Assembly (NCBI RefSeq): GCF_001999765.1
Contig: NZ_MTIC01000003.1
Span: 372,001-436,000 of the forward strand
Length of the DNA: 64,000 nucleotides
Direction: 5' to 3'
Source: Sinomonas mesophila
GTDB taxonomy: Bacteria; Actinomycetota; Actinomycetes; Actinomycetales; Micrococcaceae
Notes under the pieces: model-generated
What the model was told of the DNA's origin: nothing
What the model saw: the letters and a program-made list of their open reading frames with translations, nothing else
Database searches by the model: none
Program-made: the position numbers and the translations under genes
Part shown: in pieces, positions 35,237 to 63,025 of the stretch
Layout of the letters: every line of letters starts with the position of its first letter
Position numbering within the stretch: position 1 is the first letter of the stretch

Positions 35237-35299
35237 CAACGCCGCATCGCAACACGCCGAAAAGGACGGATCTTTCCAGCGTGTTGCGATGCGGCGTTG
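35237..35299. repeat. long palindromic intergenic repeat, copy 1
   Basis: Perfect 21-bp arms (35237-35257 and 35279-35299) share the core GCATCGCAACACGC and enclose a 21-base centre. It fills the gap between the convergent ends of rdgB and the DedA gene, where it could terminate both. Two relatives occur at 50312 and 62961. Confidence 0.88.
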
Positions 35300-35311
35300 A
35301 GGTGTGAGGGA

Positions 35312-36121
35312 CTACTTCCCGTCCGGGTGCGTCTTGCGCTCCTCGACGGGCTCGTGCTCCTCGATGAACTCGTCCACGACGTCGGTGCCGAAGCGCTCCG
35401 CCTGCTTCTTCGCGGAGATGCCGCGGACGAACTCGAGGATGATCGGCAGGACCGAGACGAGGACGATCGCGATGAAGATGATGTCGATGTTGTCCCCGAC
35501 CCACTGGTACTGGCCGAGCCACGCGCCGAGCAGCGTCACGCCGCCGCCCCACAGGAGCGCGCCGATGACGTTGTAGAGGAAGAACTTGCCCTTCCCCATC
35601 TGGGCGACCCCCACGATCACGGGCACGAAGGTGCGGATGATCGGCACGAAGCGGGCCAGGATGAGGGCCTTGCCGCCGTGCTTCTCGAAGAACGCGTGCG
35701 CCTTCTCGACGTTCTCGCGCTTGAACAGGCGCGAGTCCGGACGGTTGAAGATGGCCGGGCCGGCCTTCGAGCCGATGAGGTATCCGGCCTGGTTGCCGAT
35801 GACCGCGGCGACGATGATGAGGCCCGCCATGGCCCAGAGGTTGAACTGGATGGCCCCCGTCGCGACGAGGAGCCCGGCGGTGAAGAGCATCGAGTCGCCG
35901 GGAAGGAAGAAGCCCACGAGCAGCCCGGTCTCGGCGAAGACGATGCCGCACACGAGGAGCACGACCCACGGCCCCAGCGGTGAGTTGCGCAGGAACACGT
36001 CCGGGTTGAGCCAGTCGGGCAGGAACGAGGCCATGTGCGGCTGCACGGCGAGGGCCTGCACGGCCAGCCCGTTGAGCGCCTCGGTCGCAGCGGGCAGGGA
36101 GGTCAGGAGCGTCGGAGTCAC
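35312..36121 (-). CDS. DedA/VTT-domain membrane protein
   Basis: The 269-residue polytopic protein belongs to the DedA family, some of whose members transport undecaprenyl phosphate or phospholipids. It has ETGLLVGFFLPGDSMLFTAGLL (re-entrant loop with the key Glu and Pro), then FFEKHGGKALILARFVPIIRTFVPVIVGVAQM with the conserved Arg residues. GTG 36121 lies 6 bases after TAGGCT (36128-36133), a leaderless start. It is divergent from the DnaQ-BRCT gene. Confidence 0.9.
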   Translation of the reverse strand: MTPTLLTSLPAATEALNGLAVQALAVQPHMASFLPDWLNPDVFLRNSPLGPWVVLLVCGIVFAETGLLVGFFLPGDSMLFTAGLLVATGAIQFNLWAMAGLIIVAAVIGNQAGYLIGSKAGPAIFNRPDSRLFKRENVEKAHAFFEKHGGKALILARFVPIIRTFVPVIVGVAQMGKGKFFLYNVIGALLWGGGVTLLGAWLGQYQWVGDNIDIIFIAIVLVSVLPIILEFVRGISAKKQAERFGTDVVDEFIEEHEPVEERKTHPDGK

Positions 36122-36208
36122 CCCCCAAGCCTACGGGAGAAAGCCTGTGCACCCGCTGTGGCGTGTGGCTCACGGGCGCGGGGCCCGGGCGCGGCTAGAC
36201 TCGTCGCC

Positions 36209-37264
36209 GTGCCCCTGGACTTCACTGCGATCGACTTCGAGACGGCCAATGGGTTCCGGGGCTCCCCCTGCTCGGTGGGCCTCGTGCGCGTCCGGGACGG
36301 GCGCGCGGTCGAGCGCGCGCACTGGCTCATGCGGCCCCCGGAGGGCCATGACCACTTCGACCCGCGCAACGTCGCGGTCCACGGCATCAGGCCGGAGGAC
36401 GTGGCGCACGCTCCGCGCTTCGCCGACGTCTTCGCGGAGATCGGCGGGTTCATCGGCGACGACGTCCTCGCCGCCCACAACGCGGCCTTCGACCTCGGCG
36501 TGATCCGCTCGGCCCTCGAGGTCAGCGCCCTGCCGGCCCCGGCCTACGACTACGCGTGCACCGTGGTCCTCTCGCGCCGCACCTACGACCTGCCCTCGCA
36601 CTCGCTGCCCTTCGCCGCGCGCGCCGCCGGCGTCGAGCTCGAACGCCACCACGACGCCGCCGAGGACGCCGCAGCGTGCGCCGGGGTCCTCGTGGACATC
36701 GCCCGGCGGCACGGGGCGGACAGCGTCGGGGGCGTCTACGGCGCGCTGGGCCTCTCGCTCCCGCGCCAGGACGGCTTCGTCCCCGGGGTCGACGAGCCCT
36801 CGCGCCCCACCGCGCGTGCCATCGCGCGCACGGGCCCGGGCGCCCCGGACAGGGGACGCACGACGGCGGGACGCGCCCCGCGATCGCGCCCCGCCGGCAC
36901 GGGGCGTGCGTGGGCGCCGTGGCCGACCGAGGGCGCGAACCCGCTCGCCAACGCCGCCGCAGACCCCAACCATCCCCTCTTCGGGCACCGCATCGTCTTC
37001 ACGGGCACGCTCGGCATGACGCGTTCCGAGGCCAAGGAGCGGGCCGCAGCCCTCGGCGCGCAGCCCGCGAGCACGGTCACGCGCGCGACGACGATCCTCG
37101 TCGTCGGGGACGGCTTCGTCGCCTCGGACCTCGTCTCCGGCCGCGTGACGTCCAAGGCCCGCCGGGTGCTCGAGCTGCGCGAGCGGGGCCAGCGGGTCGA
37201 GGTCCTCTCCGAGGCCGAGTTCCTGCAGATGCTGGGCGGGCGGTGGCCCGCCCGCAGCGCCTAG
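36209..37264 (+). CDS. DnaQ-like 3'-5' exonuclease with C-terminal BRCT domain
   Basis: The 351-residue protein has an exonuclease domain (1-175) with Asp9/Glu11 in AIDFETANG, a second Asp in AAHNAAFDLGV, and HHDAAEDAAA carrying the last motif. A proline/arginine linker (about 200-250) leads to a BRCT domain (about 255-345: GHRIVFTGTLGMTRSEAKERAAALGA). This architecture suggests DNA proofreading or repair. GTG 36209 lies 7 bases after TAGACT (36196-36201). The residue pattern follows the DEDDh branch. Confidence 0.88.
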   Translation: MPLDFTAIDFETANGFRGSPCSVGLVRVRDGRAVERAHWLMRPPEGHDHFDPRNVAVHGIRPEDVAHAPRFADVFAEIGGFIGDDVLAAHNAAFDLGVIRSALEVSALPAPAYDYACTVVLSRRTYDLPSHSLPFAARAAGVELERHHDAAEDAAACAGVLVDIARRHGADSVGGVYGALGLSLPRQDGFVPGVDEPSRPTARAIARTGPGAPDRGRTTAGRAPRSRPAGTGRAWAPWPTEGANPLANAAADPNHPLFGHRIVFTGTLGMTRSEAKERAAALGAQPASTVTRATTILVVGDGFVASDLVSGRVTSKARRVLELRERGQRVEVLSEAEFLQMLGGRWPARSA

Positions 37265-37338
37265 CCGAGGAGGTCCGGCCGGTCACGCGACGCAACAGTC
37301 CTTCCGGGGCGGCTCGCCGGATCCCTAGGCTGGTGGGC

Positions 37339-37914
37339 ATGACCGAGAGCCAGACCGGATTCGCGCAGACCGGATTCGCCCACGTCGATGCTACTGAGGT
37401 GGTCAGCGTCGCACCCCGCCAGAGCCTTCTGCGGCGCGCGTTCGCCTTCCCCAACCCCGTCAACGAGTACGCGGCGCGCGCGACGGCGGGCATCGTGGTC
37501 GTCCTGAGCCTCGCCGCGCTGCTGACCCAGTCCGGGTGGGCGCTGTGGGCCATCGCTATCGGCTTCGCGCTGCGCGTCGCGGGCGGGCCCCGCTACTCCC
37601 CGGAGGGCCGGCTCGCGGTGCACGTCATCGCCCCGCGCCTCGGCCCGGCGCGCCTCGTGGCGGGACCGCCCAAGCGCTTCGCCCAGGGGATCGGGCTCGT
37701 CGTCTCGACGGCCGCCGCGATCCTGCACGCGTCGGGCCTCGTCGTCGCCGCCTGGAGCGTCCTCGGCATCCTCATCGTGGCCGCGTCGCTCGAGGCCTTC
37801 GTGGGCTTCTGCCTCGGCTGCTGGATCTTCGGCCGGCTCCAGGACGCTGGCCTGATCCCGGCATCGGTGTGCGAAGCCTGCTCGAGCGTCGGCAGCGCCC
37901 GCAGCGGACGCTGA
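37339..37914 (+). CDS. DUF4395 membrane protein
   Basis: The product has 191 residues with about four helices and the DUF4395 layout: FAFPNPVNEYAARATAGIVVV, GPRYSPEGRLAVHVIAPRL, GPPKRFAQGIGLVVSTAAAIL and a Cys-rich FCLGCWIFGRL. A duplicated TGFAQTGFAH near the start and Cys pairs at the end (CEACS) are notable. Such proteins often sit near thioredoxin-like sulfur carriers; none is adjacent here. ATG 37339 lies 7 bases after TAGGCT (37326-37331). Confidence 0.85.
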   Translation: MTESQTGFAQTGFAHVDATEVVSVAPRQSLLRRAFAFPNPVNEYAARATAGIVVVLSLAALLTQSGWALWAIAIGFALRVAGGPRYSPEGRLAVHVIAPRLGPARLVAGPPKRFAQGIGLVVSTAAAILHASGLVVAAWSVLGILIVAASLEAFVGFCLGCWIFGRLQDAGLIPASVCEACSSVGSARSGR

Positions 37915-37926
37915 CCGAGGCCGCGC

Positions 37927-38889
37927 TCAGGCCCCCGTGACCGCCGCGAGGCGCGCCGCCACGCCGTCGGCCGCCGCCATCCCCGCCGTCCGCTCCGCCC
38001 AGGCGGAGGGCACGGCGGCCGGGCCCCACAGCGTGCCCAGGAGCGCGCCCGCGATGGCCGCCGCGTCGCTCCCGTGCCCCGCGGCGAGGCCGACGCCCGC
38101 CGCGAACGCCCCGTCCAGAGGCTCGCCGGACCGCCCGGCGCTCTCGGCCGCGAGGACCGCCGACGCCGCACGGCCGAGGGCCTGGGCGGCGGGTCCCGCC
38201 CCGACGCCCACGCCACCGATCCCGTCCAGTGCGGACAGGACGTCCGGGTCCGGGACCCGCAGCGAGGCGACCTGCGCGCGCGCCGAGCCGAGCGCCGTCG
38301 CGGCGTCGGCGCCGAGCGCGAGGTAGTGGGCCGTCGCGGCGACGGCGACGGCGGCCTGGACGGCAGGCGCGGCCCCGTGGGTCAGATGGGCGGCGTCCGC
38401 GCTCATCTTGGCGACGGCGGCCGCCGGGATGTGGGGGACGAGGCCGAAGGGGGCCGTGTGCGCGGCGGCCCCGGCGTCGTCGTGTGCGAGGCCGAGCGGG
38501 CGCGCCGGCGTGCCCATCTCGCCCGAGGCGAGCGAGTCCACCCACGCCGGCAGCGGGCGCGCGGGCACCCGCACGCCCTCCTGGCCGTCGAGCCAACGCG
38601 CCTGCGCAACGGGGGCAGAGGGGGCGATCGGCACGCCCTGGCCGCCGAGCCAGCGCAGGGACGCGAGCCACACGCACGCCGCCTCGTCCGCGTGCACGCC
38701 GTCGTTCGCCCACTCGATGGCCTCGGCGAGCGCATCCGCGGTGAAGAGCGTGAGCTGGCCGGCGGCGCCGAGGGGGCGCGAGGCCGGGCCCGGCGCGTCG
38801 GTGCCGGCGGGGTCGAGGGCGGCCGCCTCGGCGACGGCGGTGCCCGCGAGGCAGCCGTGGATCCGCTCGGCGGCAGTGGGAGTGCTCAT
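37927..38889 (-). CDS. ADP-ribosylglycohydrolase-family protein with altered metal motifs
   Basis: The 320-residue all-helical protein resembles DraG/ARH ADP-ribosylglycohydrolases: a start like RIHGCLAGTAVAEAA and a late GHGSDAAAIAGALLGTLWG, the position of the usual GGDTDSxAAIAGA. Several metal-binding Asp/Thr positions are changed: the N-terminal GD is AE, and the late DTD is GSD. It may be inactive or use another substrate. ATG 38889 lies 7 bases after TAGATT (38897-38902), a leaderless start. It converges with the DUF4395 gene. Confidence 0.75.
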   Translation of the reverse strand: MSTPTAAERIHGCLAGTAVAEAAALDPAGTDAPGPASRPLGAAGQLTLFTADALAEAIEWANDGVHADEAACVWLASLRWLGGQGVPIAPSAPVAQARWLDGQEGVRVPARPLPAWVDSLASGEMGTPARPLGLAHDDAGAAAHTAPFGLVPHIPAAAVAKMSADAAHLTHGAAPAVQAAVAVAATAHYLALGADAATALGSARAQVASLRVPDPDVLSALDGIGGVGVGAGPAAQALGRAASAVLAAESAGRSGEPLDGAFAAGVGLAAGHGSDAAAIAGALLGTLWGPAAVPSAWAERTAGMAAADGVAARLAAVTGA

Positions 38890-38983
38890 GGGCCACAATC
38901 TACCGGGTATCCTTCACGGGCAGAGCCGTGCCCGCAGTGCACCGGAGCCGGCCGACGCGAGGCCGAAGGGACGAGAGGGACTC

Positions 38984-39340
38984 ATGCGCGAACCCGCGTG
39001 GCGCAGGACAGGGACGACCCCCGACTACCGCTTCTCGCTCGCGAACGAGCGCACGTTCCTCGCGTGGCTGCGCACGGCGCTCGCGCTCCTGGCCGGCGCC
39101 GTCGCGCTCGACCAGCTGACGCCCAACATCGCGCCCGCCCTCGTGCGCGGGATCCTGGCGGTGGCCCTCGCGGGCGTCGGGGCGGCCCTCGCGGCGCTTG
39201 CGTACCGGCGCTGGTCGCTCGCCGAGCAGGCCATGCGCCACGGGCGCGAGCTGCCGTTCTCGAGGGTCATGCTCGGGATGACCCTCGTCGTGGCCCTCGC
39301 CGCGCTTGCCTTCGCCGTGCTCGTCGTGGTCCGGCCGTGA
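38984..39340 (+). CDS. DUF202 (YidH-like) membrane protein
   Basis: The product has 118 residues and three helices. The family signature is RFSLANERTFLAWLRTALALLAGAVALDQL, and the rest spans two further helices. The ATG at 38984 has GAGAGGGA ahead. It overlaps by GTGA with a second DUF202 gene, and such pairs are common. Function is unknown. Confidence 0.88.
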   Translation: MREPAWRRTGTTPDYRFSLANERTFLAWLRTALALLAGAVALDQLTPNIAPALVRGILAVALAGVGAALAALAYRRWSLAEQAMRHGRELPFSRVMLGMTLVVALAALAFAVLVVVRP

Positions 39341-39702
39341 CCGTCCCGGCCGCCCCGGGCGCGGGGGGAGAGGCGCGGGACCCGGGCCTGCAGCCCGAGC
39401 GCACTTCCCTGTCCTGGCGGCGCACACTCCTCTCGCTCATCATCCTGGACCTGCTCGTGTGGCGCGCGTGGCTCGTCGCGGCGGACGACGGCGGGCGCGG
39501 CCCCGGCGTCGTGGCCGCGCTCGGCGTGTGCGCGGGCGCCGCGGCGACGGCCACCGCCGTCCTCGCCCTGTGCGCGCGGGCCCGCCGGCGTGAGCTTCGT
39601 CACGGCACTCAGGCGCCGCCCGCCGCCCTCATGCGCTGGGCCACGGCGGCCCTCGTGGTGCTCGGAGCGGCGACGATCGCCGTCATCCTGCTCGGGCGGT
39701 AA
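39337..39702 (+). CDS. second DUF202 membrane protein
   Basis: The product has 121 residues. The shortened DUF202 signature is LQPERTSLSWRRTLLSLIILDLLVWRAW, and two further helices follow. It begins with GTG inside the preceding gene's stop (GTGA at 39337-39340) and probably forms a heteromer with it. The N terminus is Ala/Gly-rich and disordered. Confidence 0.85.
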   Translation: MTVPAAPGAGGEARDPGLQPERTSLSWRRTLLSLIILDLLVWRAWLVAADDGGRGPGVVAALGVCAGAAATATAVLALCARARRRELRHGTQAPPAALMRWATAALVVLGAATIAVILLGR

Positions 39703-39785
39703 CCTTCACTGGGACCGGCGCAGGCCCCGCCGAACCGCTGCGGACACCCGCAGAGACCACGAAAGCTCCACGAAAGAGGACTTCC

Positions 39786-40790
39786 ATGACCACCACCGTG
39801 GCCGACCGCACGCCTGCGACGGCGCCCGAATACGGCGTCGTCGCCAAGCTCTCCGCCGAGGCCTTCGGCACCTTCCTGCTCGTCTTCGGCGCGCTCGGCG
39901 TGGCCCTGTTCAGCAACCCCTCGGCGGCGCCGATCCCGACGCCGCTCGCGCTCGGCCTGGCCCTCGCGGTCGGCATCGCCGCGGTGGGCCACGTCTCCGG
40001 CGGCCACTTCAACCCGGCCGTGACCCTCGGCCTCGCGGTCGCGGGGCGCACCAACTGGCGGCTCGTCCCCGGATACATCGCGGCGCAGCTCGTCGGCGGC
40101 CTCCTGGGCGCGCTCGTGCTCTGGGTCAGCGTGCGCACGCTGCCGAACCTGAGCAACGTCCAGACGATCTTCTCCCAGCTCTCCAACGGGTTCGGCGAGC
40201 ACTCGCCGAACCAGTTCCCGCTCGCCGCGGGCCTCCTTGCCGAGGTCGTGTCGGCTGGCGCCTTCGTGGCGGTCGTCCTGGCCGTGACGAGCCGCCGCGC
40301 CATCAAGGGCATGGCGCCGTGGGCCATCGGGCTCGGCCTCGCCGTCCTCGTCCAAGGCATCGCGCCGATCACGAACGCGGGCCTCAACCCCGCCCGCTCG
40401 ACCGCGACGGCGGTGTTCGCCGAGCCCGGCGTGCTCGCCCAGCTGTGGCTCTTCTGGGTCGCCCCGATCCTGGGCGCCGTGATCGTCGGCCTCATCTTCC
40501 GCGGCTTCGGCTCGCCCGAGGACCTCCACCGCGCCACCGCAGGCGCCCTCGCCGACGTGACAGCCGAGGCCACGCGCGACGACGGCGCCCGCGCCTCGGA
40601 CGCGGCGGTGGCCGCCGCCGCTGCGGAGACGGCTGAGGACGCGGCCGCCGCGGAGGCCCAGGGAGAGACCGCCGGGACCGCGACGGCGGAGCCCCAGGCC
40701 GCCCAGCCCCAAGCTGCCGAGACCCCGGCCGCCGAGACCCCGCGCAGCCCGGAGGACGACGCGCGCGACTTCTTCGACAAGAACCGCTGA
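39786..40790 (+). CDS. MIP-family channel (aquaporin/glycerol facilitator)
   Basis: The 334-residue protein has six helices and both pore motifs: GGHFNPAVTLGLAV (first NPA) and GLNPARSTATA (second NPA). The core ends near residue 245 and is followed by about 85 residues rich in Ala, Glu and Pro, ending DDARDFFDKNR, which is unusual for this family and probably disordered in the cytosol. AAGAGGA precedes the start. Water rather than glycerol is suggested by the general AqpZ-like look, but this is not certain. Confidence 0.9.
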   Translation: MTTTVADRTPATAPEYGVVAKLSAEAFGTFLLVFGALGVALFSNPSAAPIPTPLALGLALAVGIAAVGHVSGGHFNPAVTLGLAVAGRTNWRLVPGYIAAQLVGGLLGALVLWVSVRTLPNLSNVQTIFSQLSNGFGEHSPNQFPLAAGLLAEVVSAGAFVAVVLAVTSRRAIKGMAPWAIGLGLAVLVQGIAPITNAGLNPARSTATAVFAEPGVLAQLWLFWVAPILGAVIVGLIFRGFGSPEDLHRATAGALADVTAEATRDDGARASDAAVAAAAAETAEDAAAAEAQGETAGTATAEPQAAQPQAAETPAAETPRSPEDDARDFFDKNR

Positions 40791-40858
40791 GCCGAGAACC
40801 TGCGCCGCGGGCCGGTGGCGCCGCAGAAATGTCGGTGCCACCGGCTAGCCTCGCTCGC

Positions 40859-42022
40859 ATGAAGATCCTGCACACCTCGGACTGGCACCTCGGCCGCTCC
40901 TTCCACGGCGTCGGCATGCTCGCCGCTCAGGCCGAATGGCTCGACGGGCTTGTGCGCTTCGTCGAGCAGGAGGAGGTCGGGGCGGTCCTCGTCGCGGGGG
41001 ACGTCTACGACCGTGCGCTGCCGGCGGTCGACGTCGTGGACCTCCTCGACTCGGCCCTCGTGCGCCTCGTCGGGGCCGGAACGCAGGTCGTCATCAGCAG
41101 CGGAAACCACGATTCCGCCGTGCGCCTCGGGTTCGCCTCGCGACTGCTCGAGCGCGGCGGCGTCCACCTGCGCACGCGCGTGGAGGAGATCGGCTCGCCC
41201 GTGCTCCTGCCCCTCCTCGGGGGCGCGCAGCTCGCCGTCTACGCCCTGCCGTACCTCGAGCCCCGGCTCGTCGGCGACGCGCTCGGGGTCTCGGAGCAGG
41301 GGCACACCGCCGTCACGCGCGCGGCGCTCGACCGCGCCCGCGCGGACCTCGAGGCCCGCCGTCAGGCCGGGCCGGTCCATTCGATCGTCATGGCGCACAC
41401 GTTCGCTGGCGGGGGAGCGCCCTCGGACAGCGAGCGGGCGCTCTCGATCGGAGGACTCGACGTCGTCCCGGTGGGCCTCTTCGACGGCTTCGACTACGCC
41501 GCGCTCGGCCACCTGCACGGCCGGCAGGAGCTCACGCCGACCGTCCGGTACTCCGGATCGCCGCTGGCCTACTCCTTCTCGGAGGCGCGCCAGGCCAAGG
41601 GAGCCTGGCTCATCGAGGCCGGACCGGAGGGCATCGAATCCGTCGAGCCCGTGGCCTGGCCGAGCAGCCACCGCCTCGCGGTCCTGCGGGGACGCCTCGA
41701 CGAACTCCTCGCGGACCCGGCCCACGCCGAGGCCGAGGGCGCATACTGCCACGTCACGCTCGTCGACGACGACCGTCCGCAGCGGGCCATGGAGCGCCTC
41801 CGGGCGAGGTTCCCGCTCGCGGTGGCCCTCGCGTTCGAGCCCGAGGGCGGGGCGAAGGACGGCGGCGAGAGCTACCGTTCGCGGCTCGCCGCGGCACAGA
41901 CGGACCTCGACGTGTGCTGCGGCTTCCTCGAGCATGTGCGCGGGCGGGGCCCGAGCGGCCCCGAGAGGGCCGCCCTCGGCGAGGCCCTCGATGCCGTCCG
42001 GCTCGCGGAGGTGTCCGCATGA
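40859..42022 (+). CDS. sbcD: exonuclease subunit SbcD
   Basis: SbcD (387 residues) is the Mre11-like nuclease that with SbcC opens DNA hairpins and trims ends. The phosphoesterase motifs are MKILHTSDWHLGRSF, LVAGDVYDRALP, SSGNHDSAVRL, VMAHTFAGG and ALGHLHGRQ. ATG 40859 lies 7 bases after TAGCCT (40846-40851), a leaderless start. It overlaps sbcC by ATGA. Confidence 0.95.
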   Translation: MKILHTSDWHLGRSFHGVGMLAAQAEWLDGLVRFVEQEEVGAVLVAGDVYDRALPAVDVVDLLDSALVRLVGAGTQVVISSGNHDSAVRLGFASRLLERGGVHLRTRVEEIGSPVLLPLLGGAQLAVYALPYLEPRLVGDALGVSEQGHTAVTRAALDRARADLEARRQAGPVHSIVMAHTFAGGGAPSDSERALSIGGLDVVPVGLFDGFDYAALGHLHGRQELTPTVRYSGSPLAYSFSEARQAKGAWLIEAGPEGIESVEPVAWPSSHRLAVLRGRLDELLADPAHAEAEGAYCHVTLVDDDRPQRAMERLRARFPLAVALAFEPEGGAKDGGESYRSRLAAAQTDLDVCCGFLEHVRGRGPSGPERAALGEALDAVRLAEVSA

Positions 42023-45126: not shown

Positions 45127-45148
45127 GATGGTGAGGCTACCGGGTCCT

Positions 45149-47344: not shown

Positions 47345-50290
47345 ATGGCACTGGTGACCGAATACGCGTCTGCGGGAGTGATCGGCTCGGGCGTTGGCCC
47401 GGTCCGGGCGGGCCGGCATCGGGCGGGGTTCACTTTGGTCCTGATCGTCCTGGCCATGCTCGCCGTCGCGTCGATTGTGCTGGCGCAGATGACCTTGAGA
47501 GTTGCTGGAGGCCCCGCGCCTGCGGCGGCCGGGCCGGTGCCTGCCGTTCAGGCCTTGGGCCTTCCCCAGCCCGGGATTGCGGGCTCGGACGGTCTCTCGC
47601 GGGCGAGCAGGGAAGACGCCCTGGACGCCTATGGGAAGCTGCCTCTGTCCTTCGTGGCGAATGCCGGCCAGACCGATGAGAGCGTGCGGTACTACGCGCA
47701 GGGAGCCGGCTTCGGCTTCTTCTTCACCGAGGGCAAGGCCGTCCTGTCCTTGGCCAAAGGCGACCGCGGCCATGCGCTTGAACTTGGTTTTCTCGGCTCC
47801 AGCCCGGACGCGACGCTCGAGGCGGGCGAGCCCGCTGCCGGGACGGTGAACTACCTGACGGCGGGCGAGAGCCACACCAGCCTGCCCACCTACCAGCAGG
47901 TCGTCTACCGGGGGCTCTGGCCGGGCATCGACATGGTCTTCGCCGGCCGGGACGGAACGCTGAAGTACGAGTTCCACGTGGCGCCCGGAGCCGATCCCGG
48001 CGACATCCGCCTCTCCTACGGCGGCGCCGACGGGCTCGCGCTCGGCCCTGCCGGTGCGCTGCTCATCGACACCCCGCTGGGGGCCTTGCGGGACTCTGCC
48101 CCTACGAGTTACCAGCTCATCGACGGCAGGTCCGTCCCGGTCGAGAGCCGCTACGCGCTCGAAGATCACTCCTATGGCTTCGCGCTCGGCGGCTACGACC
48201 GAAGCCAGCCGCTGGTGATCGACCCGGCCCTCGCGTACTCGACCTACCTCGGCGGGAGCGGCATTGACGCCGGCCTCAGCATTGCCGTCGACGCCTCCGG
48301 CAACGCGTACGTGACCGGGTCCACGAACTCGACCGACTTCCCCACCACCGTCGGCGCCTTCGACACCACCATCAATGGCGACGATGCATTCGTCACCAAG
48401 CTCTCGCCCACCGGGTCAAGCCTGGTCTACTCGACCTACCTCGGGGGGAGCGGCTTCGACACCGGCGCCGGCGTCGCCGTTGACGCCGTGGGCAGCGCCT
48501 ACGTGACCGGCACAACGGATTCGGCCGACTTCCCGACCACGGCCGGCGCCTTCGACACCACCTTCAACAGCGGCAACGACGCCTTCGTCACCAAGCTCAA
48601 CCCGGCCGGCTCGGCGCTCGTCTACTCGACCTACCTGGGCGGGACGTCGTTTGACAACGGCTTCGGCATAGCCCTCGACGCGGCCGGCAGCGCCTACGTG
48701 ACCGGCGAGACGAGCTCGACCGATTTCCCGACCACCGCCAGCGCCTTCGACACCATCCACAATGGCGGCATCCGCGACGCCTTCGTCACCAAGCTGGACC
48801 CCACCGGATCGAGCCTCCTTTACTCGACCTACCTCGGGGGGAGCGACGACGACAACGGCTTCGGCGTCGCCGTCGACGCCGCGGCCAGCGCCTACGTGAC
48901 GGGCGCGACGGGCTCGACGAATTTCCCGACCACGGCCGGCGCCTTCGATACCACCCTCGATGGCGGCGGCGACGCCTTCGTCACCAAGCTCTCGCCCACC
49001 GGGTCGAGCCTCGTCTACTCGACCTACCTCGGGGGTGGCAACTTCGACCCCGGCAACGGCGTCGCCGTCGATGCCACGGGCAGCGCCCACGTGACCGGGT
49101 CCACGACCTCGACCGACTTCCCGACCACGGCCGGTGCCTTCGACACCACCGCCAACGGCAGCAACGACGCCTTCGTCACCAAGCTCTCGCCCACCGGGTC
49201 GAGCCTCGTCTACTCGACCTACCTCGGGGGGAGCGGCTTTGATCGCGGCCTCGGCGTCGCCGTCGACGCCGCGGGCAACACCTACATCACCGGCAACACG
49301 AGCTCGACCGATTTCCCAACCACCGCTGGCGCCTTGGATACCACCCTAAATGGCGGCGGCGACGCGTTCGTCACCAAGCTCTCGCCCACCGGATCGAGTC
49401 TCCTGGACTCGACCTACCTAGGGGGGAGCGGCTTCGACAACGGCGCCGGCGTCACCGTCGACGCCGTGGGGAGCGCCTACGTCACCGGGTCCACGGGCTC
49501 GGCCGACTTCCCGACCACCGCCGGCGCCTTCGACACCATCTTCGATGGCGTCGCCGATGCCTTTGTCGCCAAGCTCACGTTCGGCCCGGGCGCGCCGGCG
49601 ACAATCACGCTCGCCCCTAAGACGGACACCAACGACATCGGCACCCAGCATTGCGTGACCGCGACGGTCAAGGACGCGTCGGGCAACCCGATTCCGGGTA
49701 TCACCGTGCGCTTCACGGTCACCGGCTCGGTGACCACCAGCGGATCGGACACCACGGACGCGAACGGGGAAGCGACCTTCTGCTACCCGGGCCCCCAGCT
49801 CCCCGGCGCGGACGCGATCACAGCCTTCGCCGACACCGACAACGACACCACCCAGGATCCGGGTGAACCCTCCGACACCGCGGCCAAGGCCTGGACGCTT
49901 CCGACTACCACGCCACTCTGCCAGGTCAAGACCGAGACGGGTGGCACGATCATCGCCAACAACGGCGACAAGGCCACGTTCGGCGGCAACGCCCAGTCAA
50001 ACGCCGTCGGCAACGTCAAGGGCCAGCAGCAGTACCAGGACCACGGTCCCGCCCAGCCACAGAGGGTGAAGTCCATCCGGATCCTCGCGTTGACCTGCAA
50101 CCCGCAGCACACCCAGGCGACGATTTTCGGCCGCGCCACGATCGACGGTCAGGGCTCGCACCTGTTCCGGATCGATGTCCAGGACTTCGGTGAGCCCGGC
50201 AAGGGCAACGACACCTACTGGATCCGACTCGAGACCGGCTACGACTCGGGCTCGCACACGCTCGAGGGAGGCAACATCCAGATCCGCTAG
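47345..50290 (+). CDS. large secreted SBBP beta-propeller protein with Ig-like and C-terminal domains
   Basis: The 981-residue exported protein has a membrane/signal helix (about 29-48), a DUF7948-type region (about 85-295, LPLSFVANAGQTDESVRYYAQGAG), seven SBBP repeats (about 298-746; each opens YSTYLGG and contains AYVTGxTxSTDFPTTxGAFDT), one Ig-like Big domain (about 750-855, VTATVKDASGNPIPGITVRF) and a C-terminal beta domain like those that follow other bacterial Ig-like repeats (about 862-981). Seven repeats fit one closed seven-bladed propeller. ATG 47345 is chosen for the GAAGAGGG ahead of it. Adhesion or surface binding is likely; no catalytic residues are evident. Confidence 0.85.
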   Translation: MALVTEYASAGVIGSGVGPVRAGRHRAGFTLVLIVLAMLAVASIVLAQMTLRVAGGPAPAAAGPVPAVQALGLPQPGIAGSDGLSRASREDALDAYGKLPLSFVANAGQTDESVRYYAQGAGFGFFFTEGKAVLSLAKGDRGHALELGFLGSSPDATLEAGEPAAGTVNYLTAGESHTSLPTYQQVVYRGLWPGIDMVFAGRDGTLKYEFHVAPGADPGDIRLSYGGADGLALGPAGALLIDTPLGALRDSAPTSYQLIDGRSVPVESRYALEDHSYGFALGGYDRSQPLVIDPALAYSTYLGGSGIDAGLSIAVDASGNAYVTGSTNSTDFPTTVGAFDTTINGDDAFVTKLSPTGSSLVYSTYLGGSGFDTGAGVAVDAVGSAYVTGTTDSADFPTTAGAFDTTFNSGNDAFVTKLNPAGSALVYSTYLGGTSFDNGFGIALDAAGSAYVTGETSSTDFPTTASAFDTIHNGGIRDAFVTKLDPTGSSLLYSTYLGGSDDDNGFGVAVDAAASAYVTGATGSTNFPTTAGAFDTTLDGGGDAFVTKLSPTGSSLVYSTYLGGGNFDPGNGVAVDATGSAHVTGSTTSTDFPTTAGAFDTTANGSNDAFVTKLSPTGSSLVYSTYLGGSGFDRGLGVAVDAAGNTYITGNTSSTDFPTTAGALDTTLNGGGDAFVTKLSPTGSSLLDSTYLGGSGFDNGAGVTVDAVGSAYVTGSTGSADFPTTAGAFDTIFDGVADAFVAKLTFGPGAPATITLAPKTDTNDIGTQHCVTATVKDASGNPIPGITVRFTVTGSVTTSGSDTTDANGEATFCYPGPQLPGADAITAFADTDNDTTQDPGEPSDTAAKAWTLPTTTPLCQVKTETGGTIIANNGDKATFGGNAQSNAVGNVKGQQQYQDHGPAQPQRVKSIRILALTCNPQHTQATIFGRATIDGQGSHLFRIDVQDFGEPGKGNDTYWIRLETGYDSGSHTLEGGNIQIR
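48236..49600 (+). repeat. seven tandem ~195-bp coding repeats (SBBP blades)
   Basis: Repeat units start at 48236, 48428, 48623, 48821, 49016, 49211 and 49406, spaced 192-198 bases. Similarity is high at DNA level, e.g. CTCGCCCACCGGGTCGAGCC recurs, so blades have spread by duplication or conversion. The last unit has lost its first Tyr (GAC for TAC). Confidence 0.9.
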
Positions 50291-50311: not shown

Positions 50312-50374
50312 CAACCCCGCATCGCAACACGCCGTTATGGTCTCCCCATAGCGGCGTGTTGCGATGCGGGGTTG
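50312..50374. repeat. long palindromic intergenic repeat, copy 2
   Basis: Perfect 23-bp arms (50312-50334 and 50352-50374) share the core GCATCGCAACACGC. After a T/G pair a further 5-bp stem (TATGG/CCATA) closes on a 5-base loop. It lies between the convergent ends of the SBBP gene and the IclR gene. Compared with copy 1, the fifth arm base is C instead of G and its partner is changed too, so pairing is kept. Confidence 0.9.
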
Positions 50375-53295: not shown

Positions 53296-53365
53296 GCGCC
53301 GGACGGCCGCCCGTGGAGGGCCGGGGGTGTGCGGCACCTCACACTTCATGTATTCTCTTCTTTAT

Positions 53366-53383: not shown

Positions 53384-53429
53384 GTAATAGGCCCCCCAGC
53401 CCCGCACCCTGAAGAACGACGGAGTTCGA

Positions 53430-54797: not shown

Positions 54798-54836
54798 CGG
54801 GTCTCTGACGCTGGCCGCTCCGGCCCTGCGGTGCGC

Positions 54837-54878
54837 ACGACGGCGGGCCTCCCCCTGCGCGGGGAGGCCCGCCGTCGT
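54837..54878 (+). terminator. strong terminator after the MHS transporter
   Basis: A perfect 18-bp stem (54837-54854 and 54861-54878) with a 6-base loop CTGCGC lies 40 bases past the transporter stop. Both arms are very GC-rich and there is no long T-run after it. Confidence 0.8.
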
Positions 54879-54988
54879 CGCCGTCTCCTGGGGGCTCCGG
54901 GGTGAGCGTCGCCATTCGTGCGCTCGCGGTCAAGCGCCGTGCGCTCGTGCCCCGGCGGGCAGGGCCGTTCGCGCGGCATCGTGGGTGC

Positions 54989-55537: not shown

Positions 55538-55590
55538 GGCGTCCGCCACATCTCCCCGCCCGGGCCCGATCCGCGGCTTAGGGTGGCCCG

Positions 55591-57057: not shown

Positions 57058-57579
57058 TCAGTTGCCCTTGGTCGCCGTTGCGCGTTCGGCTTCTTCGTGG
57101 AGCCGGGAGGACCGGGCGAGCGCGAGGGAGACCACGACGGCCGTGAGCACCGCCGCCCCGAGGTGGGCCGTGACCAAGAGGTGGAGGTCCCCGTGCGACG
57201 CATCGGCCGCCGCGGCGCCAGGATCGAGCGCCGGGTCGGGGACGGCGTTCAGGACCGGATCAGCCGGCGTTGTCCGGCCGTGGTGGCCCGTGACGTCCTG
57301 GGACCCGGCGGCGAAGGCTGTGGACGCGAAGACGAGGTGGAGCGCCTGCTGCGAGAGCCCGCAGAAGAGCGCGATGGCCCACGTGGGCACGAGGGTGCGT
57401 GATACTCCGGCGGCCGCCGCGAGACCCAGGAGCGTCGCGCACGCGACGGCGACGCCAGGGGACGGGAGGGCGCCGCCCGCGAGGACGTGCGCGGCAGCCC
57501 CGAGCGCCGTCCCGCCGGGACCGGCGGCGAGGGCCGCGGCGATGGCACGGCGTCGTGAGCGTCGTGTCCGGGCGTCCAT
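57058..57579 (-). CDS. small membrane protein of unknown function
   Basis: The product has 173 residues with about four hydrophobic segments and a loop with His pairs (DVTGHHGRTTP, DASHGDLHLLVTAH) between helices 3 and 4. The C terminus is charged (LHEEAERATATKGN). The layout parallels the protein encoded at 54989. The ATG at 57579 has GGGAG ahead. It is the third gene of the TetR-AraC operon, 45 bases after AraC. No family recognised. Confidence 0.65.
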   Translation of the reverse strand: MDARTRRSRRRAIAAALAAGPGGTALGAAAHVLAGGALPSPGVAVACATLLGLAAAAGVSRTLVPTWAIALFCGLSQQALHLVFASTAFAAGSQDVTGHHGRTTPADPVLNAVPDPALDPGAAAADASHGDLHLLVTAHLGAAVLTAVVVSLALARSSRLHEEAERATATKGN

Positions 57580-57624
57580 GCACTCCCTTCGGAGCGCGCG
57601 CCTGGATCGGATGGGGCGGGAGCT

Positions 57625-58566
57625 CTAGCCGGCGGCCCGGTACGACGACGGCGGCTCGCCGAAGGCGGCGCGGAAGATCCGGCTGAAGTGGGCCGAGTCC
57701 GTCAGGCCCCAGCGCGCGGCGATCGCCGTGACGGGCCGGTCCGCGAGCACCGGGTCGCGCAGGTCGCGGCGGCAGCGCTCGAGCCTGCGCTCGCGGATCG
57801 AGGCCGAGACCGTGGTGCCGTGCTCCCGGAAGAGGTCGTGGAGGTGCCGCGTCGAGATGTAGTGCGCCGTCGCGATCGCCCCGGGGGAGAGCTCCGGGTC
57901 GCCCAGGTTCGCCTCGATGAAGTCGTGGATGCGGGCCCGGAGCACTTGGTGCGGGTCGCGGGACGCGGCCGAGCGCGCGTCGAGCTCACCGTTGAAGAGC
58001 GTCGTGACGAGGTCCAGGGCGTTGTGCGCGAGCCGCGTTCCGTTCGGGCCCGCGACGGCGCCGAGGTTCTCGGACAGCCGCACGAGGAACGGCGCCACGA
58101 GCGCGCCGAGGCCGTGCTCCCCGCTCATCGCCGTGGCCGTGATCTGGGACATCGCGTCGGCCGGGAGGTCGAGGGCCGAGTGCGGGAACATGAGCACGAG
58201 CGAGCGGAAGTCGCCGTCGAACGCGAGCGTGTACGGCCGGTCCGTCGAATAGACGGCGAGGGTACCCGGCTGCAGGACCGCCTCGCGGCCGTCCTGGAGG
58301 AGCAGCCCCGTGCCGGCGAGCTGGATGCTGAGCTTGAAGTAGCGCCGGTCGGCGGCAGCGATGAGCTTCGGCGTGCGCATGACGGCGTGGCTGCTCGCGG
58401 CGACCTCGATCATGCTGAGGTCCTCGCGGGCGATGTGCTTGCCGCGCATACTCCCGTGGAAGGTCCCGCTGCGGTCGGCCTCGACGGCGAGCGGGACGAA
58501 GGACGCGGACACGGCCCGGCGCCACGTGTCGAAGTCGTGGGCGAGGGTCACGTCCAAGGCGCTCAC
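57625..58566 (-). CDS. AraC-family transcriptional activator
   Basis: The 313-residue regulator has an N-terminal sensor domain of the AraC_binding_2 type (about 10-190: [34 protein letters not shown]) and a C-terminal two-helix-turn-helix domain (about 210-313: [33 protein letters not shown] and [25 protein letters not shown]). Related activators control aromatic amine or acid oxidation, which fits the divergent amine oxidase. GTG 58566 overlaps the TetR stop by GTGA. Confidence 0.9.
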
Positions 58567-59174
58567 GACGCGCTCCCGAGGATGCCGTCGAGGAGGCAGT
58601 CGAGCTGGGCCACGAGCTGGCCGGGGGAGTGGTGGGCCGGCGAGAGCGTCGCGGTGATCTGGGCGCCGAGGACGAGGTCCATGATGGCGCCGACGTGCGC
58701 CTCGAGGGCTGCTTCGCCCCCGCTCCCGGCATCCCCGCCGGTGCCTTCGGCCTCGTTGCGCAGGAACCCGGCCATCGCGGAGCGCCACTGCTCCATCGAG
58801 CGTTCGTGCAGCGCGGTCTTCGCCGGGTCGCGCAGGGCCTTCTGCCAGAAGGCGATCGCGACGCGGGCCTCGGCCAGCTTCTCGTCATCGAGGGGCAGGA
58901 TCTCGTGGCAGTAGGCCCGCAGGGCGGCGCGGCCGAACAGGCCCGCCGTCGCGGCCTCCATGCGGCGGTTCGTCTGGGCGAAGATGTGCTCGAACGCGAA
59001 GTCGAGGAGCCTGTCCTTCGTGGCGAAGTAGGGCTTGAGGGCGCCGTTGGCGAAGCCTGCCTCGGCAGCGATGTCCCGCATCGTCGCGGCATCGAGCCCG
59101 CGCTCCGCGATGATCCGCCACGTCGCGTCGACGAGCTCGAGGCGACGCTGGTCGTGGTTCACGATCTTCGGCAT
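58563..59174 (-). CDS. TetR-family transcriptional regulator
   Basis: The 203-residue regulator has an N-terminal helix-turn-helix ([44 protein letters not shown]) and a BetI/TetR_C-like sensing domain. ATG 59174 is chosen because GGAGG lies 6 bases upstream, whereas ATG 59180 directly abuts it. It is divergent from the amine oxidase and leads an operon with AraC. Repression of the shared intergenic region is likely. Confidence 0.9.
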
Positions 59175-59189
59175 CCCCATCCTCCGGTC

Positions 59190-59254
59190 TTTTTTTCTAC
59201 GCCTGTTGTGATTCACCTTACAGGGCCGTTATTGTCTACGTCCATAGAAAAAAA
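59190..59254. promoter_or_regulatory. widely spaced A/T-tract inverted repeat between tetR and amine oxidase
   Basis: TTTTTTTCTA (59190-59199) and its exact complement TAGAAAAAAA (59245-59254) lie 45 bases apart, flanking the region where both divergent promoters must be. A rightward promoter may be TTGTGA (59206-59211), 17 bases, TTATTG (59229-59234). The symmetry suggests paired regulator sites or DNA bending. Confidence 0.5.
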
Positions 59255-59276
59255 CTCAGCGACCTCCGGAGGAGCC

Positions 59277-61283
59277 ATGAGCACCGAGACGACCACGCAC
59301 CCCTGCCACAGCCGCGGCCACACCGCTGACGGCGCTGCAGCCCAGCCGGCCGCCGGCGCCTACGCGCTCGCCACGCCCGAGGAGATCACCGCCGTCCGCG
59401 GCATCCTCGACGCCGCCGGGCTGTGGCACGAGACCACCCGCATCGCCTACCTCGGCCTCGTGGGGCCGGCCCGCGGCTCCGCGGCGAAGGGGGCGACCGC
59501 GGTCGACAGGCGCTTCCGCGCCTTCCTGCACGACGTCGGCGGCGCCCGCCCGCACGACGTCACCGTCTCGGTCACGCGCGGAGAGGTCGATTCCGCCGTC
59601 GAGCTCGACACCGCCGTCACCGGCGAGCTGCCCGTTCTGGAGGAGGAGTTCGAGGCCGTCGAGGAGATACTCAACGCCGACGCGCGGTGGCTCAGGGCCC
59701 TCGCGGATCGCGGCCTCAACGTGTCCACCGTGCGCGTCGCCCCGCTCTCGGCGGGCGTGTTCGAGTACCCGGAGGAGAGAGGCCGGCGGATCCTGCGTGG
59801 GCTCGCGTTCGTGCAGGAGCACGCCACGGACAGCCCGTGGGCGCACCCCGTGGACGGCCTCGTCGCCTACATCGACATCGTGAACCGCAGCGTGGACCAG
59901 GTCCTGGACTTCGGGCCCGTCCCGATCCCCGCGGAGCACGGCAACTTCACCGACCCTGAGCTCACGGGCCCGGTCCGCACGAGCCAGAAGCCGCTTCTCA
60001 TCACCCAGCCCGAGGGCCCGAGCTTCACCGTCACGGGCGGCAACCACGTCGAATGGGAGAAGTGGAGCCTCGACGTCGGCTTCGACGTGCGCGAGGGCCT
60101 CGTGCTGCACAACATCTCGTTCGACGACGACGTGGCCGGCAACCCTGGCAGCCCCCGCACCACCCGCCGTCGGCGGATCCTCGACAGGGCGTCAATCGCC
60201 GAGATGGTCGTCCCCTACGGCGACCCGTCCCCGGTGAGGTCGTGGCAGAACTACTTCGACACGGGCGAGTACCTCGTGGGCCAGTACGCCAACTCGCTCG
60301 AGCTCGGCTGCGACTGCCTCGGCGAGATCACGTACCTGAGCCCCGTTGTGAGCGACGCGTTCGGCAACCCGCGCGAGATCCGCAACGGCGTGTGCATGCA
60401 CGAGGAGGACTGGTCCATCCTCGCCAAGCACTCGGACCTGTGGACCGGGGTCAACTACGTCCGGCGCAACCGCCGCCTCGTCATCAGCTTCTTCACGACG
60501 ATCGGCAACTACGACTACGGCTTCTACTGGTACCTCTACCTCGACGGAACGATCGAGTTCGAGGCCAAGGCCACGGGCGTCGTCTTCACGAGCGCCCAGC
60601 CCGAGGGCGACTACCGGTTCTCGTCCGAGATGGCTCCCGGGCTCGGCGCCCCGTTCCACCAGCACCTGTTCAGCGCGCGCCTGGACTTCGCGCTCGACGG
60701 CGGGCCGAACCGCGTCGAGGAGGAGGACGCCGTCCGCGTGCCGATGGGCCCGGGCAACGAGCGCGGCAACGCCTTCACCCGCAGGCGCACGGTCCTGTCC
60801 CGCGAGTCGGAGGCAGCGCGCGACGCCGACATGGCCGCGGGCCGGAGCTGGATCGTGAGCAACCCGACCTCGCTCAACCGCCTCGGCGAGCCCGTCGGGT
60901 ACAAGATCCACCCGCAGGGCCACCCCACCCTCCTGGCCGACCCGGCGTCGTCGGTCGCCGGCCGCGCCGCCTTCGCGACCAAGGCGCTGTGGGTGACCCA
61001 GTACGACGAGGCCGAGCGCTACCCGACCGGCGACTTCGTCAATCAGCACCCCGGCGGCGCCGGCCTGCCCGCCTACCAGGCCCAGGACCGCGACCTCGAC
61101 GGGACGGACCTCGTCGTGTGGCACACGTTCGGCCTCACGCACTTCCCGCGGCCCGAGGACTGGCCGATCATGCCCGTCGACCACGTGGGCTTCACGATCC
61201 GCCCCGAGGGCTTCTTCGACCGCAGCCCCGTCCTCGACGTCCCCGCCCCCGCCAAGGGCGACGGCGGGCACTGCCACCGCTGA
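59277..61283 (+). CDS. copper-containing primary-amine oxidase
   Basis: This 668-residue TPQ-dependent enzyme oxidises primary amines to aldehydes with release of ammonia and H2O2. The TPQ precursor is Tyr412 in [10 protein letters not shown] and the catalytic base is Asp328 in [10 protein letters not shown]. Copper ligands are His461 and His463 (FHQHLF) and His622 ([12 protein letters not shown]). These blocks match the Arthrobacter globiformis phenylethylamine/histamine oxidases, so tyramine or phenylethylamine are likely substrates. A short His/Cys-containing N-terminal extension precedes the fold. CCGGAGGA lies ahead of the ATG. Divergent TetR/AraC probably control it. Confidence 0.95.
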
Positions 61284-61340
61284 GTCCCTCGCCCCGGGAT
61301 CTCTCCCGCGGACAAGAGCCGTTCGCTGTGGGACAAGTCA

Positions 61341-61387
61341 CGGGCACGGCCGCCGCAGCACGATAGGTGCAGCGGCCGCCGTGCCCG
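61341..61387 (+). terminator. long hairpin between amine oxidase and permease genes
   Basis: Arms of 16 bases (61341-61356 and 61372-61387) pair with a single mismatch, followed by TTT. It lies 58 bases past the amine oxidase stop and 53 bases before the permease start, so it may end or limit read-through into the permease gene. Confidence 0.65.
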
Positions 61388-61440
61388 TTTCCGCAATCCA
61401 CCCGAAGACGCCATCCACCCCACTACTTGCTGGAGGACCC

Positions 61441-62949
61441 ATGAGCATCTCGACGAGCTCGCACCGGACGCCGGGGGAGGTGGCCGTGACCCGACAGCGC
61501 CGCCTCGGCGTCGCCTCCGTGACCCTCATGATCATCGCGGCCTCCGCGCCCCTGACCGTCCTCGCTGGCGGCGTGACGACGACGTTCGCCGTCACCGGGC
61601 TGCTCGGCGTCCCGCTCTCGTACCTCGCCCTCGGCGCCGTCCTCGCGGTCTTCGCGGTCGGCTACGCGGCAATGAGCCGCCACGTGACCAACGCGGGCGC
61701 CTTCTACGCCTACGTCTCCCAGGGCATCTCGCGGCCCGCGGGCGTGGGCGTCTCCCTCGTCGCGCTCATGGCGTACAACCTCATGCAGGTGGGCATCTAC
61801 GGGCTCTTCGGGTTCACCGTCTCCTCGCTCCTCGCCGAGCGGTTCGGCGTCGACCTCCCGTGGTGGATCCCGGTCCTCGCGTGCATCGCCGTCGTGGCCG
61901 TGCTCGGCGTCAACCGCGTGGACCTCTCCGCGAGGGTCCTCGGCGCGCTCGTCGCCCTCGAGTTCCTCGTCGTCATCGTCTACGACGTCGCAGCGTTCGC
62001 CGTCGCCCCCGAGGGCATCACCGCCGAGCCGCTCGCGCCCTCGAGCCTCCTTCTCCCCGGCGTCGGCGCCGTCCTGTCGTTCGGCATCGCCGCCTTCATG
62101 GGCTTCGAGTCCGCGGCTATCTACGGCGAGGAGGCCAAGGACCCCCACCGGACCATCCCGCGGGCCACGTACACCGCCGTTGGCGTCATCGCGGTGTTCT
62201 ACGCAGTGTCCGCCTGGGCCATGGCCGTCGGGGCGGGGCCGTCGCAGCTCGCGGCCGTCGCGGGGGAGCAGGGGCCCGGGCTCGTCTTCGCCTTCCTGTC
62301 CGAGCGCCTCGGCGTCATCGTCGCCGACATCGCCCAGCTGCTCTTCGTCACGAGCCTCTTCGCCGCCCTCGTGAGCTTCCACAACGCCGTGGCCCGGTAC
62401 TTCTTCTCGCTCGGCCGGGAGCGCGTCCTGCCCGCATGGCTCGAGGGGACGAGCCGCCACGGGGCGCCGCGGGCGGGCTCGCTCGTGCAGACGGGCATCG
62501 CGATCCTCGTCACCGCCGGGTTCGCCGTGGCCGGCATGGGCTCCGAGCTCGGCCCGCTCTACCCCGTCCTGACCATGTTCACGTGGCTCACTAACGCGGG
62601 CGCACTGGGCCTCGTGCTCCTCATGGCGGTCGTCTCCGCCGCCGTCGTCGGCTTCTTCCGCCGCCGGGGCGAGCTCGCCGCCGGGCCCTGGACGGCCATC
62701 GTCGCGCCGTCCCTCGGCGCCGTCGCGCTCGCGGCCGTCTTCGGCCTCATCGTGGCCAACTTCGACGTCCTGCTCGGCCAGACCGAGCCCAGCCCGCTCA
62801 GCTGGGTCCTGCCGGCGATCGTCGTCCTGCCCGGGCTCGCGGGCATCGCGTGGGCGCTGTGCCTGCGCCGGACGGACGCGCAGCTCTACCGACGGATCGG
62901 CCACGGCGAGGAGGTTCGGGAGGCCCACCACCTCGGCGAGGACGCCTAG
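61441..62949 (+). CDS. APC-superfamily amino acid/amine permease
   Basis: The 502-residue permease has 12 helices and APC motifs: VTLMIIAASAPLTVLAGG in helix 1 and AAFMGFESAAIYGEEAKDPHRTIPRATY in helix 6 and its loop. Its place directly after the amine oxidase suggests uptake of the amine substrate, which is inference. GGAGG 5 bases before the ATG gives a strong start. The gene ends 12 bases before the third palindromic repeat. Confidence 0.88.
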   Translation: MSISTSSHRTPGEVAVTRQRRLGVASVTLMIIAASAPLTVLAGGVTTTFAVTGLLGVPLSYLALGAVLAVFAVGYAAMSRHVTNAGAFYAYVSQGISRPAGVGVSLVALMAYNLMQVGIYGLFGFTVSSLLAERFGVDLPWWIPVLACIAVVAVLGVNRVDLSARVLGALVALEFLVVIVYDVAAFAVAPEGITAEPLAPSSLLLPGVGAVLSFGIAAFMGFESAAIYGEEAKDPHRTIPRATYTAVGVIAVFYAVSAWAMAVGAGPSQLAAVAGEQGPGLVFAFLSERLGVIVADIAQLLFVTSLFAALVSFHNAVARYFFSLGRERVLPAWLEGTSRHGAPRAGSLVQTGIAILVTAGFAVAGMGSELGPLYPVLTMFTWLTNAGALGLVLLMAVVSAAVVGFFRRRGELAAGPWTAIVAPSLGAVALAAVFGLIVANFDVLLGQTEPSPLSWVLPAIVVLPGLAGIAWALCLRRTDAQLYRRIGHGEEVREAHHLGEDA

Positions 62950-62960
62950 CCCCACCCCTC

Positions 62961-63025
62961 ACAACGCCGCATCGCAACACGCCGTTACGGGATGCCCATA
63001 ACGGCGTGTTGCGATGCGGCGTTGT
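62961..63025. repeat. long palindromic intergenic repeat, copy 3
   Basis: Perfect 27-bp arms (62961-62987 and 62999-63025) with the core GCATCGCAACACGC enclose an 11-base centre that can add GGG/CCC pairs. It lies just past the permease stop and before a rightward promoter, the only copy between co-directional genes. It is the longest perfect copy of the three. Confidence 0.9.

Follow-up and report, generated by a model that had tools for sequence, protein, structure and literature searches.

A dispersed family of long palindromes in Sinomonas mesophila with an AbiEi-like/DUF559 nuclease gene as its probable partner

Repetitive extragenic palindromes (REPs) have been described as palindromes of 20–40 bp with a GTAG or CGTC tag at one end (PMC3733652). 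In the REP/REPIN systems of the REP-associated tyrosine transposase (RAYT), and in TIRtrons, many dispersed, genome-specific palindromes accompany an enzyme gene that is flanked by the same repeats (PMC3733652; PMC8049555), whilst some REP-like repeats lack a known enzyme, the CGTC REPs being described as having no dedicated transposase (PMC3733652). Several protein families are also relevant here: the homing endonuclease I-Bth0305I is reported to form a dimer on a target almost 60 bp long (PMC3943268), AbiEi antitoxins are reported to bind paired 23-bp inverted repeats set 3 or 13 bp apart (PMC7319586), a Vsr-like DUF559 protein has been described from Caulobacter (PMC12907096), and the name of the MTES_1575 domain originates in PMC3710099. 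Here we describe a family of long palindromes, F1, three copies of which lie in a stretch of 64,000 nucleotides of the actinobacterium Sinomonas mesophila (hereafter the window; contig C2, NZ_MTIC01000003.1, positions 372001–436000 of a 4.0-Mb genome in 47 contigs; window G+C 72%), together with the nuclease gene that appears to be its partner. The scattered F1 copies, and like families flanking related nuclease genes, suggest that palindromes spread here in a REP-like manner, through a kind of enzyme new to such systems; among the papers listed in searches of the open-licence literature, none linked such nucleases with palindromes. Throughout, G numbers denote genomes (G000 being this one), C numbers contigs, L numbers loci and F numbers palindrome families.

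The initial annotation had described three intergenic palindromes with perfect arms, and reading of the sequence agrees with it on their places and arm lengths (Table 1). It agrees also on the common core GCATCGCAACACGC, which begins at 35244, 50319 and 62969 and has its reverse complement 35 bp further on in all three, and on the centres, those of copies 2 and 3 being related and that of copy 1 different. It can be added that the centre is variable in sequence and constant in length. The annotation's expectation of many copies per genome was borne out: the exact 14-bp core has 53 matches genome-wide and the reversed control pattern none, which rules out a chance origin of the cores, and a covariance model built from 29 F1 copies (67 model positions) found 34 places in the genome rather than only three, each on both strands at E 2e-9 or better, with five additional strand matches that are weak. 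All 34 matches span 67 nt over the 67 model positions, and length is thus constant, with a dyad of 63 bp, the consensus CAACGCC...GGCGTTG, near-invariant arms and a variable centre. Over the 29 copies, 90.6% of cells are paired and nine pairs have both sides changed; the covariation score of 0.128 was reached by none of 500 shuffles, and structures slid along the alignment scored 0.038–0.054. The double change noticed earlier at arm position 5 is real (G–C in 18 copies, C–G in five, unpaired in six), and the predicted excess of paired substitutions is seen over these 29 copies; related genomes have the family with differing inner arms, which still pair. Many central pairs are broken, the innermost in about a third of copies, and no known RNA family was matched in the window by Rfam at gathering score. 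The two half-centres of one copy differ on average at 2.62 of eight positions, against 3.60 under random pairing (minimum of 5000 shuffles, 2.71); unlike half-centres, with at least five differences, occur in 10 of the 34 copies, and four of the 34 pass a strict mosaic test. We read this pattern as breakage and rejoining at the centre, the alternative being independent mutation with palindrome correction.

F1 is matched at E 0.01 in 10 of 15 genomes of the genus, its own included. The outer arm AACGCCGCATC is widely common and the inner arm is not, reading GCAACACGC here and AGGACATGC in G005, where eight strong copies agree save for single differences; the single core match of G012 has no matching left arm. 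Outside the genus, 80 named loci (1.5 Mb of partial genomes) yielded one weak place only. A minor set is found within this genome, with GCGACACGC in both arms at C5:43660, C6:140157 and C12:37225; the copy at C12:36375 belongs to it with one further difference in one arm. Two copies of this set enclose a SnoaL-like gene (L095 3078–3990; G000 C12:36375–37291), and on the far side of that gene there is a second stretch resembling the end of the GntR regulator next to it.

Three F1 copies lie within 2.8 kb on contig C2, around a gene that is flanked by F1 on both sides (Table 1). Its orthologue in G005, 69% identical, is likewise flanked on both sides, by F1 copies with the other arms, and one of the flanking palindromes stands just upstream of the nuclease start; the arms therefore differ between the two genomes while the orthologous gene is flanked in both, which supports a partnership. 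The N-terminus of the encoded protein is AbiEi-like: PADLOC AbiEi models match three of the proteins, at E 2e-14 (the G005 protein), 3e-6 and 5e-11, and Pfam AbiEi models lie at or below cut-off, the AbiEi_4 match of the G000 protein being below it. The C-terminus is predicted, by homology to relatives, to be a DUF559/Vsr-like nuclease domain, a call made for the F1 proteins because the related proteins of families F6 and F7 (below) match DUF559 above cut-off; MTES_1575 is below cut-off in five of seven proteins tested, and NCBIfam gave no match for four proteins. An AlphaFold2 model of an F6 protein has a mean predicted local distance difference test score of 61, with blocks of 68–93 over the last 100 residues, and for this model Foldseek placed the I-Bth0305I catalytic domain first (probability 1.00, template modelling score 0.70 on the target, E 0.04; no match below 0.001). 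A profile search with the F6 protein also placed this domain first (E 0.011). As to possible carriage by plasmids or phages, weakly related genes were seen in three plasmid records and one phage record, and a scan of IMG/VR confirmed no relative. Two further observations concern this locus: the nuclease open reading frames (ORFs) of G000 and G005 terminate within the downstream palindrome, so that their final codons and stop are part of it (L243 1476–1536; L076 4006–4072), and two F1 copies likewise bracket the flavin adenine dinucleotide (FAD) oxidase gene that separates the nuclease from a MerR gene (L042 6196–7896; G000 C2).

Unrelated palindromes stand in the same relation to other members of this nuclease group. 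F4 (CGACTGCTCCGTAASTGTCG) flanks nuclease paralogues in G004, G008 and G011, and is found at 11, 18 and 16 listed places in these genomes and at none in the other 12 of the genus; the F4-clade nuclease is held by the same three genomes, none of 20 further paralogues being closest to it (one distant paralogue has the F4 clade only as third-best match, at 28%). In Arthrobacter-like genomes, F6 (TTGCNCTATCACTT) lies on both sides of a nuclease downstream of ino1 in three loci and on one side in a fourth, at a contig end. Thirty of the 80 named loci, mostly Arthrobacter-like, were chosen and their genomes searched: F6 occurs in six (4, 19, 15, 2, 8 and 12 copies) and in none of the other 24, with no match to the reversed control, and an F6-clade nuclease (at least 79% identity) is present in five of the six against none of the 24 (Fisher 4e-5, the genomes not being independent), in U41 as a 73-residue match at 85% only. 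In A. oryzae, an F6 copy and the nuclease, located by separate searches, are 20 bases apart. In A. agilis and, within a wider stretch, in A. bussei the nuclease has F7 on either side, in Arthrobacter sp. Y81 it has F8, and a relative of F4 is found in A. celericrescens. Spacing is constant here as well: all 36 readings of F4 (some copies read twice) put the arms 36 nt apart, and all seven of F6 put them 48 nt apart. Among individual loci, two intact F6 palindromes in Arthrobacter sp. U41, a genome with 12 F6 copies, enclose a nuclease reduced to an ORF of 146 codons (L169 11100–11671), and one F6 copy with a near-identical centre recurs in three genomes (G079 C11:1219243, G064 C140:4439, G077 C14:35777), so that some copies may have stayed at their sites for a long time. 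In several genomes, a related, CAATTGTYGGCTTGA-like palindrome lies at one end of the gene in a further clade of orthologous nucleases (L407 2475–2531 in G000 C12; L268, L404, L406), and palindromic repeats with TGACCCCGC arms, in L096 (G000 C2:212776–212848) and L101 (G000 C16:62402–62437), resemble the F9 palindrome that adjoins nucleases in L345 and L346.

Of 59 nuclease genes, 10 have palindromes of one family on either side, against one of 836 control genes (Fisher 8e-12), the nuclease genes being those of 60 loci minus one without a gene match and the controls the other genes of the 80 named loci; the ten flanked genes come from five palindrome families and so do not count as ten independent cases. 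In 1.6 Mb scanned without bias there were 44 strong palindromes, with one same-family pair, which lies at the nuclease remnant of U41. Twelve pairs came from a lenient scan of 1.96 Mb, four of which enclose a nuclease gene (L076, L154, L169 and L042, the last with a neighbour); one is the F1 pair around the SnoaL gene (L095), three have short F1-like words (L073, L090, L091), and the last four look like other or G+C-rich repeats. In a maximum-likelihood tree of the 59 proteins, F1, F4, F6, F7 and F9 each fall on one side of a branch with 100% bootstrap, F8 having one row and F9 being labelled from one-sided palindromes, and the family labels change six times against a shuffled mean of 14.8, with none of 200 shuffles as low. 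Every palindrome family with two or more rows maps to one nuclease clade.

Table 1. F1 copies of the window (positions in the window) and the F1 partner gene (position in its contig)
Feature	Position	Structure	Surroundings
F1 palindrome, copy 1	35237..35299	Perfect 21-bp arms 35237–35257 and 35279–35299; variable centre 35258–35278	Convergent genes 34574–35230 (+) and 35312–36121 (−)
F1 palindrome, copy 2	50312..50374	Perfect 23-bp arms 50312–50334 and 50352–50374	Convergent genes, ends at 50290 (+) and 50404 (−)
F1 palindrome, copy 3	62961..63025	Perfect 27-bp arms 62961–62987 and 62999–63025	12 nt past stop of gene 61441–62949 (+); next gene 63086–63727 (+)
F1 partner gene	Contig C2 75142–76131 (L042 5140–6132, minus strand)	330 codons	Beside ino1; outside the window

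Compared with the described systems, F1 resembles REP–RAYT in being dispersed and extragenic (one of the 34 copies is inside a called ORF), in its genome-specific arms and in the flanking of an enzyme gene. It differs in that no RAYT domain was found: the initial annotation had advised looking for a REP-associated tyrosine transposase, and PF01797, which matches in five of 14 control genomes, has no match in this one, so that a RAYT was rejected; the proposed enzyme is the AbiEi-like/Vsr-like protein. The palindrome differs too, being one complete dyad of 56–67 bp where a REP has 20–40 bp, with no GTAG or CGTC tag in the F1 consensus. The C-terminal domain, as judged on the F6 protein, has its best though weak matches (E 0.011 and 0.04) in the catalytic domain of I-Bth0305I and may thus recall the EDxHD homing endonucleases; unlike I-Bth0305I, the protein has an AbiEi-like N-terminus, a free-standing gene between palindromes and sites scattered genome-wide. 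The N-terminal match likewise recalls the AbiEi of type IV AbiE toxin–antitoxin systems, from which the protein is set apart by its nuclease-like C-terminus and, at the F1 locus, by the lack of an AbiEii toxin among the gene neighbours examined there (ino1, the FAD oxidase and the MerR regulator).

What the data show is dispersal, fixed length, placement at gene 3′ ends, two-sided flanking of nuclease genes, the match of families to clades, co-occurrence across genomes and recurrence in five unrelated families. We lean slightly towards regarding F1 as a set of non-autonomous REP-like palindromes whose partner is the AbiEi-like/DUF559 nuclease gene and whose spread the nuclease drives. The parts of this reading differ in strength: the palindrome–nuclease partnership is well supported and we regard it as very probable, whilst binding, cutting and mobility are what we infer; recognition of the palindrome by the protein is likely, and nuclease-driven spread is evenly balanced. 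The partner protein would join an AbiEi-like DNA-binding N-terminus to a C-terminal DUF559/MTES_1575 nuclease, of the type found in Vsr/EDxHD homing endonucleases. Each conserved arm would be bound by one protein, a dimer thus covering the whole 63-bp dyad and cutting near its centre, and repair or joining of the breaks would swap half-centres between copies and let the palindromes reach gene 3′ ends and become homogenised there, a hairpin being tolerated at such places or useful as a two-way terminator. We read the dispersed palindromes, then, as binding and probable cutting sites of their cognate nuclease and perhaps also as terminators, an activity plausibly compatible with the rest. Since AbiEi and I-Bth0305I both bind long or paired sites, a dyad of 56–67 bp with fixed spacing may be what a fusion of the two kinds needs. 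It is possible, although we stop a little short of calling it probable, that AbiEi–Vsr fusion nucleases make up a new dispersal class, a RAYT/REP counterpart with an unrelated enzyme: a dimer on its own clade's palindromes would cut the variable centre, repair would spread and homogenise them, protein and palindrome would be re-matched as both evolve, and specificity would have switched several times among the sampled Actinobacteria.

A number of observations weigh against this reading. Flanking is exceptional within the protein family: neither end carries a palindrome in 37 of the 59 nuclease genes, and both-flank palindromes are found at none of the 20 further paralogues (10 of 79 overall). 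A palindrome on one side alone tells little (12 of 59 against 97 of 836). Flanking of DUF559 genes in general was rejected, no same-family pair being found at 30 loci retrieved with the Pfam DUF559 model. The co-occurrence tests are not independent because the compared genomes are related. The two F1 proteins have themselves no Pfam nuclease match, and the F6 structure model is poor overall, with a best match of E 0.04. Eight genomes of the genus have one to five F1-like mixed copies and no flanked F1 nuclease was seen there, G077 has eight F6 copies and no cognate nuclease, no dispersed F8 was found in 400 kb of G061, and 380 kb of G070 holds only two F7 copies, both beside the nuclease. Neither an insertion boundary nor a target duplication was observed, and the intergenic flanks of the relatives are too diverged to show the target-site duplication at a clean empty site that is expected of a MITE derived from an insertion sequence.

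The placement of F1 bears most directly on the possibility that the copies act as intrinsic terminators in both directions and owe their likeness to selection or gene conversion, with the nuclease genes merely among those served. According to a home-made, uncurated codon-usage gene caller, nine copies lie between convergent genes, 21 in co-directional gaps, three in divergent gaps and one inside a called ORF. A gene 3′ end is adjacent to 31 of the 34, at a median of 14 nt from the stop and with 26 within 30 nt, and 21 of 22 co-directional copies (in-ORF copy counted) lie closer to the stop than to the following start (sign test 1e-5). The dispersed, REP-like family proposed earlier is thus recovered, with its copies at gene ends, and placements were also read for F4 (21 copies: 12 convergent, nine co-directional, none divergent) and F6 (17 loci read, two misplaced by a contig end; the other 15 comprise five convergent, eight co-directional, one divergent and one open). 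A stable hairpin shortly past the stop codon, a feature of intrinsic terminators, is present in F1, and relatives often have unrelated hairpins at orthologous sites. A T run follows the hairpin at none of the three window copies, although actinobacterial terminators may lack one. In transcript sense the mismatches comprise 13 G–U, nine A–C and 40 others, and a G–U over A–C asymmetry was dropped as a sign of selection on RNA, there being no clear signal. Termination requires neither a fixed length nor a common arm sequence, and leaves unexplained the two-sided flanking, the palindrome upstream of the start and the single family per nuclease clade; we therefore judge this account unlikely as a whole, and the dedicated terminator family suggested by the initial annotation survives as a possible second role, termination alone failing to explain the fixed length, the conserved and genome-specific arms and the nuclease pairing. 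That the copies are instead operators of an AbiEi-like regulator, which would use the upstream palindrome to repress its own gene and would also act on the dispersed copies, with a separate job for its nuclease domain, would fit the palindrome just upstream of the nuclease start and the autoregulation of AbiEi antitoxins via inverted repeats (described in PMC7319586). The same placement data make this improbable, only three of 34 copies lying between divergent genes and nearly all co-directional ones lying nearer the stop; autoregulation, moreover, needs no downstream palindrome, and copy number varies widely among genomes.

Orthologous sites bear on a further alternative, in which the nuclease gene moves as a unit together with half a palindrome at each end and the solo palindromes are remains after recombinational loss of the cassette. 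At site 1, ten relatives show other hairpins (G009, G002, G003, G014) or spacers of 26–38 nt without a hairpin (G013, G005, G004, G012), G008 and G001 being unclassified; at site 2 the gene on the left was not found in the stretches of relatives read; site 3, readable in four of seven relatives, has another hairpin in G013, G009, G002 and G003. At the ino1 site, among 15 genomes, F1 is found in G000 and G005, a different perfect hairpin with arms of 12–23 bp lies within 170 nt in G013, G002, G012, G008 and G010, and the rest are unclassified. These readings place F1 at spots that hold terminator-like hairpins or short spacers in relatives. A cassette would account for the nuclease and palindromes sitting between ino1 and the MerR gene in G000 and G005, whilst in G013 ino1 directly meets a MerR-like gene with another hairpin between (gene identities judged from sequence), for the U41 remnant between both its F6 palindromes, and for the unlike half-centres in 10 of the 34 copies. 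It would also require as many insertions and losses as there are solo copies (34), with the U41 remnant as the only recognised intermediate, and in several Arthrobacter ino1 is followed downstream by a related nuclease that has no F6 palindromes, an arrangement favouring inheritance in place; we give this account the least credence. Separately, the nearest named ino1 among the matches listed is that of Arthrobacter (86–87%). Short repeated palindromes like TGGGATCCCAAAT, possibly operators, lie at most 310 bp past ino1 in L239, L240 and L234 (G011, G001, G008), and gene ends of the genus also have a second and commoner type of hairpin, its arms being ACGACGGCGGG/ACGACGCCGGG, at 54837–54878 in the window and at the ino1 3′ flanks in L230, L233 and L235.

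On the reading of F1 as REP-like palindromes partnered by a nuclease, unrelated palindrome families, each with one nuclease-like clade, provide natural protein–DNA pairs with matched specificity, which opens binding, cutting and spread to direct test. A function could then be assigned to many genes whose annotation now stops at DUF559 or AbiEi-like, and a set of nucleases recognising long targets, each specific to its clade, may become available.

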